Source: Aneurinibacillus sp. (GTDB taxonomy: Bacteria; Bacillota; UBA5301; DYFA01). From it: a stretch of DNA of 64,000 nt. The notes beneath the pieces are model-generated. The model did no database searches and was not told the origin of the DNA. It saw nothing but the letters and a program-made list of their open reading frames with translations. The translations under genes and the position numbers were made by a program. Every line of letters starts with the position of its first letter. Positions within the stretch are counted from its first letter, which is position 1. The stretch lies in assembly GCA_020725425.1 (NCBI GenBank), contig DYFA01000004.1:1-64000 (forward strand). Direction: 5' to 3'. This document shows positions 24,760 through 64,000 of the stretch, in pieces.

Positions 24760-25655
24760 CGTTGCTCCCGCATGACGGAAATCAGGAAGTCGAGCCCGTC
24801 GAGGATCCGCGGCCCCGGGCGTGACAGGAGGTCCGGGTCCACCTGGTAGACTTTCCCGGCCCGCACGGCGCTTATGCCTTGCCACTGCGGCTTTTGCAGC
24901 ACCGGTGCGGGGGGCGGGCAGGCCACCACGATCACCTGCGGGTCGGAGAGGAGGAGGGCCTCCTCGCTCAGGAGCGGCCAGGGGCTCTTTGCCTCGGCGG
25001 CCACGTTGCAACCCCCCGCCAGCCGGACCAGTTCGTCGAGGAAGGTGCCGGGCCCGGCGGTGTAGAGCTGCTCCGGATCGAGCAAGAGGAAGACTCTCGC
25101 TCGTCCTTCCGGCCGGCGGGCGTTCTCCGCCCCCGCCTGTACCAGACGTTCCAAGCGGTGGCGAAAGCGGTCCGCCTCCCGTCTTCCCGCCTCCGGCTTC
25201 CCGGCCGCCCGGGCCAGGAGTTCCATCGCCCGGGGTACCTCCGCCACCCGCCGCGGCGCCACTGCCAGGATCGGCCAGCCGAGCCGGTCCAGTCGCTCCA
25301 GGAAGGGCCGCTCCAGGGAGGCGTCACCCACGATCAGGTCCGGCCGGAGGGCGGCGATCCGCTCCTCGCTCAGCGCCAAGTCCCCCACCTTGGGCAGGGC
25401 CTTCGCCGCCTCGGGGTAAGTGCACCAGCGGGTGACCCCGACCACCCGCTGACCCAGCCCCAAAACGAAGAGCATCTCGGTCACGCTCGGCGCCAGGGAG
25501 ACGATGCGCTGCGGCGGCGCCTTCAAGGTCACCCGCCGCCCCAGGTCGTCGGTGAGGGTCAGGGGATAGGGAGAAGCCGGCGCAGCGTGAATAACCGGGA
25601 AGGCAGCCAGCATACCCAGCAGACAGAGGTACAATCCGGCTGAAAGACGGCGCAC
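24756..25655 (-). CDS. BtuF-like substrate-binding protein of metal-chelate importer
   Basis: Helical-backbone periplasmic binding protein, 299 residues. Signal peptide at the N-terminus (LYLCLLGMLAAFPVIHA); no lipobox Cys. The segments APPQRIVSLAPSVTEMLF and VVGVTRWCTYPEAAKALPKV are those of BtuF-type cobalamin binders. The first gene of the btuFCD-like set, followed by permease, ATPase and the phosphohexomutase with overlapping ends. Cobalamin is favoured because the TonB receptor at 42.7 kb is under a cobalamin riboswitch, but none was seen upstream of this gene, and heme or siderophore transport is possible. Confidence 0.88.
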   Translation of the reverse strand: MRRLSAGLYLCLLGMLAAFPVIHAAPASPYPLTLTDDLGRRVTLKAPPQRIVSLAPSVTEMLFVLGLGQRVVGVTRWCTYPEAAKALPKVGDLALSEERIAALRPDLIVGDASLERPFLERLDRLGWPILAVAPRRVAEVPRAMELLARAAGKPEAGRREADRFRHRLERLVQAGAENARRPEGRARVFLLLDPEQLYTAGPGTFLDELVRLAGGCNVAAEAKSPWPLLSEEALLLSDPQVIVVACPPPAPVLQKPQWQGISAVRAGKVYQVDPDLLSRPGPRILDGLDFLISVMREQR

Positions 25656-62072: not shown

Positions 62073-62342
62073 TCAAGTCAGGTTCTCCGGTGAAACCAAA
62101 CCGTTTTGGATTGCCAGAAGCACCAGCCGGGAGCGGCCGTTGATCCCCACCTTCTTGTACACGCTGGAGATATGATTCTTCACGGTCGACTCGCTCACAT
62201 ATAGCAGTCTGGCAATCTCCCGATTGGAGTGGCCCTTGGCGATCAGGGTCAGAATCTCTCGCTCCCGCGGGGTCAAGGAGGCCAGGGCAGGCGCTTGCCG
62301 CCCCGGTCCAGTCCGGGAGCCCAAACCTTCACCGCCGGCCAA
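62073..62342 (-). CDS. GerE-like stand-alone LuxR-type HTH regulator
   Basis: An 89-residue protein consisting of a LuxR/FixJ helix-turn-helix (LTPREREILTLIAKGHSNRE, then IARLLYVSESTVKNHISSVYKK). No receiver domain. The size and layout match GerE, the small mother-cell regulator of spore-coat genes in Bacillus, though other small LuxR regulators exist. TTG 62342 is supported by GGAGGTG 7 bases upstream. It is the last gene of the run that begins with the arsenic genes, 76 bases after the candidate selenoprotein. Confidence 0.85.
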   Translation of the reverse strand: MAGGEGLGSRTGPGRQAPALASLTPREREILTLIAKGHSNREIARLLYVSESTVKNHISSVYKKVGINGRSRLVLLAIQNGLVSPENLT

Positions 62343-62418: not shown

Positions 62419-62790
62419 TCACCCGCCTCTGGCGGACGTCCGGTCCTCGCCCTCTCCCGGCCAGCGCGCAGCTAGTTGGCGCCGCACCTCGTAGTCGATC
62501 CGGCTGGGAGAGAAGGCCCCGGTAAAGATGACCTTCCCTTCCACCACGGTCAGCGGAAGAAGGGAGGCATCCTGGGCCATGAGCCGCACCTCCTCCGGGA
62601 ATCCGGACAGAGCAGAATCGGTCACATCCAGATAGCGAAAGGCGATACGGCCGGCATAGTTCCGCTTCAAGCGCTCACCGTAGGACGCGGCGATCTCCTC
62701 CAGAGATCGGTTGCCCCCTCACCCGTGGCAGTAGCGCCAGTCCCGGGTTCCGATCAGCACGACTTCGACCGGCCGGAATCCCCCCGCCAT
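62419..62790 (-). CDS. thioredoxin-fold protein with in-frame UGA, candidate selenoprotein (CxxU)
   Basis: Read through one UGA (62719-62721), ATG 62790 to the stop at 62419 gives 123 residues. UGA is codon 24, three after Cys21 in WRYCHG-UGA-GGN, so it stands at the second Cys of a CxxC redox motif. After it the frame reads RSLEEIAASYGERLKRNYAG, then a cis-Pro-type thioredoxin segment PLTVVEGKVIFTGAFSPS. The order of elements recalls the small YuzD-like disulfide proteins. Right after the UGA, CGATCTC and GAGATCG form a 7-bp stem with a 5-base TGGAG loop starting 16 bases downstream, within the bacterial SECIS pattern. ATG 62790 has AAGGGAG upstream; downstream of arsC. Alternative: a nonsense mutation. 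Confidence 0.72.
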
Positions 62791-62876: not shown

Positions 62877-63311
62877 TCACAAGGTGGATAAGGATTCGGG
62901 GATTCTTACCACAAAGTCCCGGATCAGGTCCCGGACCCGGCGGAACTCGGCCAGGACCTCGTCCGGGGAGCCTGCCGCCCGGGCGGGATCGGGGAACCCG
63001 GCGTGGACCGTCTTCCGGGCGCCGGGGAAAACGGGACAGGCGGCGTGGACATCGTCGCAGAGGGTGACGACGTAATCGAAGGGCTGCCCCAGGAACTCGC
63101 TCAGGTGCTTGGAGCGGTGGCCCGAGAGGTCGACTCCGGCCTCCCTCATCACCTGGACGGCCAGCGGATTGATCCCGGCCGGCTGGGTCCCGGCCGAGAA
63201 AGCCTCGATCTTCCCCCGATGCAGCGCCCTGGTCCACCCCTCCGCCATCTGGCTGCGGCAGGAGTTGCCGGTGCAGAGGAAGAGGATACGCAGGGGTTTG
63301 GGCGAGGTCAA
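62877..63311 (-). CDS. arsC: arsenate reductase, thioredoxin-coupled (ArsC, low-MW phosphatase fold)
   Basis: Reduces arsenate to arsenite, 144 residues. P-loop Cys13 in LCTGNSCRS, and the relay cysteines Cys85 and Cys92 in [14 protein letters not shown]. With an offset of 3 these are the Cys10, Cys82 and Cys89 of the Bacillus/Staphylococcus enzyme, which is recycled by thioredoxin. Its ATG overlaps the acr3 stop. The thioredoxin-fold candidate selenoprotein lies 86 bases downstream and might be its reductant; that is inference. Confidence 0.95.
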
Positions 63312-64000
63312 ACCGACAACTTCCTTTCGTGCATGTTTGGGAACCAGTGCTTGGTCCGTTTAGCGATGCTGACGAGACTGAGCATGATCGGGACCTCGGT
63401 CAAAACCCCGACCACCGTCGCCAGGGCGGCGCCGGACGAGAGGCCGAAGAGCGAGATGGCCACCGCCACCGCCAGTTCGAAGAAGTTGCTCGCCCCGATC
63501 ATGGCCGCCGGCGCGGCGATCTCGTAGTCGACCTTCCACCACTTCGCCCAGAGGTAGCCGAGGAGGAAGATGAAGTAGGTCTGGATGATCAGCGGGACGG
63601 CGATGAGGAGGATGTGCACCGGCTTGTGGAGGATGACGTCCCCCTGGAAGGAGAAGAGAATGATCAAGGTCAGAAGCAGGCCGAAGATGGTAAAGCCGCT
63701 CAGGCACTTGAGGAAGACCTCATTGAACCACTGCAGGCCCTTGCGCTTGATGAGCTGAACCCGGGAAAAGTACCCCGCCGCCAGCGGGATGAGGATGAAC
63801 AAGACCACCGACAGGAGCAGGGTGTCGTACGGCACCTGGATGGCGGTTACGCCGAGCAGGAAGGCAACGATCGGAGCGTAGGCGAACAGGACCACGAGGT
63901 CGTTGATGGCCACCTGGACCAGGGTATGCCCCGCATGGCCGCCTGAGAGGTAGCTCCACACGAAGACCATGGCGGTGCAGGGGGCGGCGCCGAGCAGGAT
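63308..64000 (-). CDS. acr3: Acr3-type arsenite efflux permease, 5' end outside window
   Basis: C-terminal 230 residues of a 10-helix arsenite/H+ antiporter. At the window edge it reads [17 protein letters not shown], with the Cys essential in Acr3, followed by [20 protein letters not shown], the second conserved block. Overlaps arsC by 4 bases. Exports arsenite made by ArsC. The operon's regulator (ArsR) would be upstream, outside the window. Confidence 0.95.

Follow-up and report, generated by a model that had tools for sequence, protein, structure and literature searches.

The last gene of the arsenic-resistance (ars) operon in the window (the whole stretch of 64,000 nucleotides of DNA that was analyzed) is best explained as the gene of a selenocysteine (Sec)-containing thioredoxin-fold protein of 123 residues, and we consider this reading very likely. 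That its in-frame UGA is a Sec codon is likewise very likely, and on comparative grounds nearly certain; actual incorporation of Sec is inferred, as no experiment has been made. The reading frame, the exchange of UGA and Cys, the covariation of the SECIS-type hairpin, the Sec machinery, the fold and the operon were all computed, while the partner of the protein and its chemistry are, like the incorporation itself, inferred. An earlier note, made from the sequence alone, had proposed a candidate new selenoprotein in an arsenic-resistance locus, and the comparative evidence supports this proposal. The features of the locus are listed in Table 1.

Table 1. Positions of the Sec gene, its recoding signals and the adjoining ars genes within the window.
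Feature	Position	Strand	Details
Selenoprotein gene (Sec inferred)	62419..62790	minus	123 codons, Sec at codon 24 (C21-H-G-U24), stop UGA 62421-62419
In-frame UGA taken as the Sec codon	62719..62721	minus	aligned column UGA in 23 rows, Cys in nearly all others
SECIS-type hairpin	62691..62711 (approximate ends, within 62690-62712)	minus	7-bp stem CGAUCUC/GAGAUCG, loop UGGAG
arsC, thioredoxin-type arsenate reductase (LMWP fold)	62877..63311	minus	PF01451 78.8 bits; TIGR02691 138.7 bits (below the 174.3 cut-off)
acr3, arsenite efflux permease	63308..64000	minus	TIGR00832, 394 bits, over cut-off (complete gene)

The frame starts with an ATG at 62790 that is preceded by a GGGAG-type ribosome site, and after the first UGA it stays open for 99 more codons up to the second. 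The N-terminal part of the read-through product is MAGGFRPVEVVLIGTRDWRYCHGUGGNRSLEEIAASYG.... Under genetic code table 11 only two open reading frames are found at this locus, namely one of 83 aa from a downstream TTG (62670-62419) and one of 172 aa that overlaps arsC and ends at the UGA; therefore, the selenoprotein gene would escape gene finders.

A search of the genome contigs with the window protein as a single query returned no match, because the family diverges fast, and a profile search succeeded instead. When the seven genomes of the class were searched, UGA-bearing relatives turned up in other families, and the profile had matches in 78 of the 399 genomes of the phylum; the relatives are only 21-37% identical to the window protein. 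About 60 loci were retrieved, in which the family members were read through the UGA, and an alignment of 55 rows (A2) was made of the family together with ArsD (three rows). In the column of residue 24, UGA occurs in 23 rows from 20 genomes, and Cys occupies this column in the 19 rows that have no UGA. The remaining 13 rows (L067, L086, L089, L090, L094, L096, L099, L100, L102, L103, L107, L111 and L117) have their UGA at a more N-terminal Cys, 5' of the residue-24 column, typically in the form GGUSC...CGP or CGUGC...CGP; in the divergent row L117 the residue-24 column is a Val codon. Sec has moved between two Cys positions inside one fold family. The sequence is conserved beyond the UGA to the cis-Pro and further, so that the test for membership was met: the UGA is in frame, the coding sequence is conserved on both sides of it, and the aligned homologues have Cys. 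Direct reading of the sequence upheld the claim of a single UGA flanked by one open frame with a ribosome site and start upstream. The claim that this UGA takes the place of the second Cys of a CxxC motif also held, since the suggested search for homologues with Cys at position 24 found homologues that carry either UGA or Cys there. A pattern scan built from a further alignment (A5) returned only five records, from Thermincola and Firmicutes MAGs; A4 was too divergent to scan.

Two further features were noticed among these loci. The genome of the window carries a second UGA paralogue outside any ars locus (L060:5156-5548, minus strand; G000:C18, about 25155-25547), which reads VVGCPPPGKGUGGGEGQRPWD... 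and has a 6-bp hairpin (GCGUCC-GUG-GGACGC) 23 nt after its UGA. Separately, a subgroup with the sequence NCxRTGUGPVQSQAET (L074, L080, L081, L084, L085 and L088) lies directly behind a queC/queD-like pair in six genomes.

The bacterial SECIS (bSECIS) model (PMC13188914, Fig 2) requires a stem of 4-16 bp, a loop of 3-9 nt with a G in its first two positions, a distance of 16-37 nt from the UGA, and an MFE of at most -7.5. The window hairpin meets this model either as 7 bp with the loop UGGAG at 16 nt or as 8 bp with the loop GGA at 17 nt. The predicted 7-bp stem with a 5-base loop 16 bases downstream of the UGA was thus confirmed. However, the stem had also been said to start directly behind the UGA, and this failed, because nine bases intervene. 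The statement that the first two loop bases carry G is only partly right: the GG stands at bases two and three of the 5-nt loop; if U and G pair, the loop shrinks to 3 nt and the GG comes first in it. The folding energy (-18.7 kcal/mol over 47 nt, z -1.34, with 13 of 200 shuffles as good) makes the single hairpin unremarkable on thermodynamics alone and is uninformative. Its score for bSECIS geometry was matched by just 1.7% of 1000 random positions in 20 control loci.

The evidence that the hairpin is real is comparative, not energetic. The 22 closest, gapless UGA sequences share a common 6-bp helix and an invariant GG in the loop. Paired cells made up 93% (93.2%) of their stem versus 84% in shuffles, with 17 two-sided changes versus 5.7, and the outermost pairs vary among A-U, G-C, C-G and U-A. 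The covariation score exceeded that of all 500 shuffles and lay far above those of slid registers, pairing being destroyed when the partner was slid; all but one of the covariation measures beat nearly all shuffles. The geometric bSECIS score was 14-21 in all 23 UGA rows versus 0-13 in the 29 non-UGA rows (p 3e-10). Given that the peptide motif RS(Q/L)EE alone could force nucleotide conservation, the Cys homologues were used as a control. The closest Cys forms, in genomes G392 (CASCGGSRSQAQ; CASCGGSRSQ) and G233 (CCGSRSQEE), retain the peptide motif and have lost the stem, because their Ser codon is AGC. The SECIS-like hairpin of the earlier note therefore held, being conserved across the UGA homologues with compensatory changes.

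We also looked for the machinery of Sec insertion. In the genome of the window (G000; 2.38 Mb, 72 contigs, 97% complete), one cluster on contig C8 holds selA, selB and selD, which score 594, 357 and 373 bits, respectively, and are all over cut-off; the selD has an in-frame UGA of its own at the catalytic position (KSGUAAKY). The extreme end of C8, adjoining selD, holds a tRNA of which only the 3' part remains, with the anticodon loop CUUCAAA (UCA); ARAGORN makes no tRNA-Sec call for it because the gene is cut by the contig end. The test for Sec machinery was met, and the outcome of the suggested look for selA, selB, selC and selD was favorable, with selC present only as this tRNA-Sec fragment. 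Other strong matches to the tRNA-Sec model in this genome are tRNA-Ser genes and were rejected. By our own count 35 genomes have a UGA form, and 34 of them have a strong selA, which is over cut-off in 256 of the 399 genomes overall; the selA of G002 is truncated by a contig end. The lone exception, G331, has a UGA member, SelB (364 bits) and tRNA-Sec(UCA), and neither selA nor selD was found in this 99%-complete genome (L077, L120 and L153); missing contigs or an unusual pathway are possible explanations. In the Cys-only genomes G392 and G233 there was no selA, selB or tRNA-Sec above paralogue level.

Next to these signals stands the fold of the protein. The AlphaFold2 model of the window protein (pLDDT 86.1, pTM 0.78) has as its closest solved structure 1xg8 (S. 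aureus SA0798, DUF1462), with an E-value of 2.7e-4 by structure and 1.6e-8 by sequence profile; after it, Foldseek listed ArsD (3mwh, 3kgk and 3ktb among the top matches) and thioredoxins. The model has a beta-alpha core, the redox motif ahead of a helix, and a cis-Pro loop with P79 invariant in A2, and thereby meets the test for a thioredoxin fold. A thioredoxin-fold body with a cis-Pro-type segment, as claimed earlier, is upheld for the fold, while the cis state of the Pro is inferred.

The second Cys of the CASC motif of DUF1462/YuzD (PF07315) aligns with the window Sec24. However, the window protein is a distant relative, as its 13.9 bits fall below the 25-bit gathering cut-off, and no selenoprotein form of DUF1462/YuzD is listed in the sources that we searched. 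Among the relatives, L105 scored 23.6 bits and the UGA member L112 of G126 scored 29.0 bits, which passes; therefore, a Sec form of DUF1462 exists under Pfam's own rule. ArsD (PF06953, NF033727) shares the thioredoxin-like fold, the ars operon context and an xLPxxxxxG segment, and by our own reading the C-x4-[C/U]-G-P of typical members has the spacing of ArsD C13-x4-C18-G-P; in addition, hhalign matched the family profile to ArsD in the region of CGP (prob 86, E 5e-6). Membership in ArsD was nevertheless rejected, given 11.8 bits against a 27-bit gathering score (E 0.31) and no vicinal Cys pair of the CC-x4-C motif that ArsD requires, and true ArsD co-occurs in several of the operons. The known CxxU thioredoxin-fold selenoproteins (SelW-like, Prx-SUH and Trx-like Sec.1/2, among others; table of PMC13188914) have in common with the window protein a Sec redox motif, a small thioredoxin fold and a bSECIS just 3' of the UGA, but their motif and neighborhood differ. 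The C-terminal half of two relatives is weakly similar to the HUIPC thioredoxin-like selenoprotein (NF047660; E about 0.001), which has its Sec in UxxC; the similarity is far under the 105-bit cut-off, and there was no match to the window protein.

The operon lies on one strand in the order arsM, arsR, ArsE/MTH895-like thioredoxin, ArsP_1 permease, acr3, arsC and, last, the Sec gene. The matches of arsM (NF008823), the ArsE-like thioredoxin (TIGR00412) and acr3 are over cut-off, and the permease matches PF03773. The first six genes overlap or lie a few bases apart, and the Sec gene follows arsC after 86 nt; the complete acr3 (366 aa) extends past the edge of the window to about 64408 of G000:C24. 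Genes of the ars type, arsR excluded, were found in 11 of 60 member loci versus none of 20 random loci, which are a small control; the 11 include one near-identical pair, L094 and L095. Other members adjoin acr3 or sit in arsR-arsD-arsA-arsA operons (L094/L095, L103, L104 and L110; also L064, L067, L068, L087 and L098), behind arsA in five loci, and thioredoxin reductase (TrxB) adjoins six others. The earlier note had inferred a link to arsenate reduction from the thioredoxin-dependent ArsC gene upstream. The arsenic link held and is stronger than was claimed, because the operon extends past the window with arsP, the ArsE-like thioredoxin, arsR and arsM, and because other members sit in ars loci; a role specific to ArsC remains an inference. 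About 49 of the 60 member loci are away from ars genes, and therefore the family as a whole cannot have an arsenic function.

Two neighboring genes may be mentioned separately. The ArsE/MTH895-type thioredoxin (GSGCCNCN; L059:7900-8139, minus strand), in the same operon past the window edge, could serve the Sec protein as reductant or partner. Immediately downstream of the operon, at 62073-62342 on the minus strand, the window encodes a stand-alone 89-aa LuxR-type (GerE) HTH protein.

We propose that the UGA of codon 24 would be decoded as Sec by SelB and tRNA-Sec(UCA), aided by the SECIS with its loop 16-17 nt downstream, and that the C21-x-x-U24 pair would precede the first long helix. The protein belongs to a DUF1462/YuzD-like family, which is common in Bacillota-type genomes and has Sec or Cys at this position. 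As to its function, which is inferred, our first choice is that the protein is dedicated to arsenic detoxification and works by thiol-selenol redox chemistry, a proposal as likely to be right as wrong. On a partner, for example thioredoxin-type ArsC or ArsM, the selenolate would attack either a disulfide or arsenic bound to a thiol, and the thioredoxin system would then reduce the Cys-Sec bond that results.

A possible second choice is an ArsD-like carrier of As(III), in which the Cys thiol and the Sec selenol would bind arsenite and pass it to Acr3, ArsA or ArsM without electron transfer. The ArsD structures among the top fold matches, the profile alignment around CGP, the ArsD-like C-x4-U-G-P spacing and the five members behind arsA speak for this. 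However, those operons mostly have a genuine ArsD of their own, CxxU replaces the vicinal CC and third Cys of ArsD, the Pfam score is low, and many members adjoin TrxB instead. It is unlikely, as a third choice, that this is a general redox or metal-homeostasis selenoprotein, as DUF1462/YuzD may be, recruited without an arsenic-specific role: most homologues do lie outside ars loci, some by TrxB or in the queC/queD-like cluster, but the tight operon place after arsC and the recurrence by acr3, arsA and arsD in about ten loci argue against it. Finally, it is all but excluded that the UGA really terminates translation, or stems from a recent nonsense mutation or an error of sequencing, with the frame behind it a mere remnant: table 11 does read UGA as stop and the folding energy alone is not unusual, but conservation past the UGA to the cis-Pro and beyond, UGA in the same column in 20 genomes of many families, the covarying SECIS and the Sec machinery reject it.

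The Sec protein appears to represent an uncatalogued family of thioredoxin-fold selenoproteins. NCBIfam (June 2026) has no model matching the family: its selenoprotein models gave no match to the window protein at E 5 and none over cut-off, and among the 55 aligned members only the ArsD rows gave strong matches. No family of Pfam or NCBIfam claims the window protein. The table of 119 prokaryotic selenoprotein families in a 2026 review (PMC13188914) lists neither a DUF1462 nor an ArsD-like family, nor anything else that matches, and nowhere in the literature that we searched are YuzD or DUF1462 linked to selenoproteins, although a description under another name is not fully excluded. The chemistries of selenium and arsenic are closely linked, yet arsenic operons are known to encode only a few selenoproteins. 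A bolder reading, which we lean slightly against, is that a widespread, uncatalogued Sec form of DUF1462/ArsD-like proteins exists with two alternative Sec positions, and that some of its members would bind or reduce arsenic by a thiol-selenol pair in ars operons. No earlier selenoprotein would then have been a metallochaperone or reductase integral to arsenic resistance of this type. If confirmed, the finding would add a family that occurs in no fewer than 35 of the 399 genomes sampled from one phylum and that standard annotation cuts short at the UGA. It would also offer a way into DUF1462/YuzD, a family of unknown function, since Sec points to the residue that is catalytic or a ligand.
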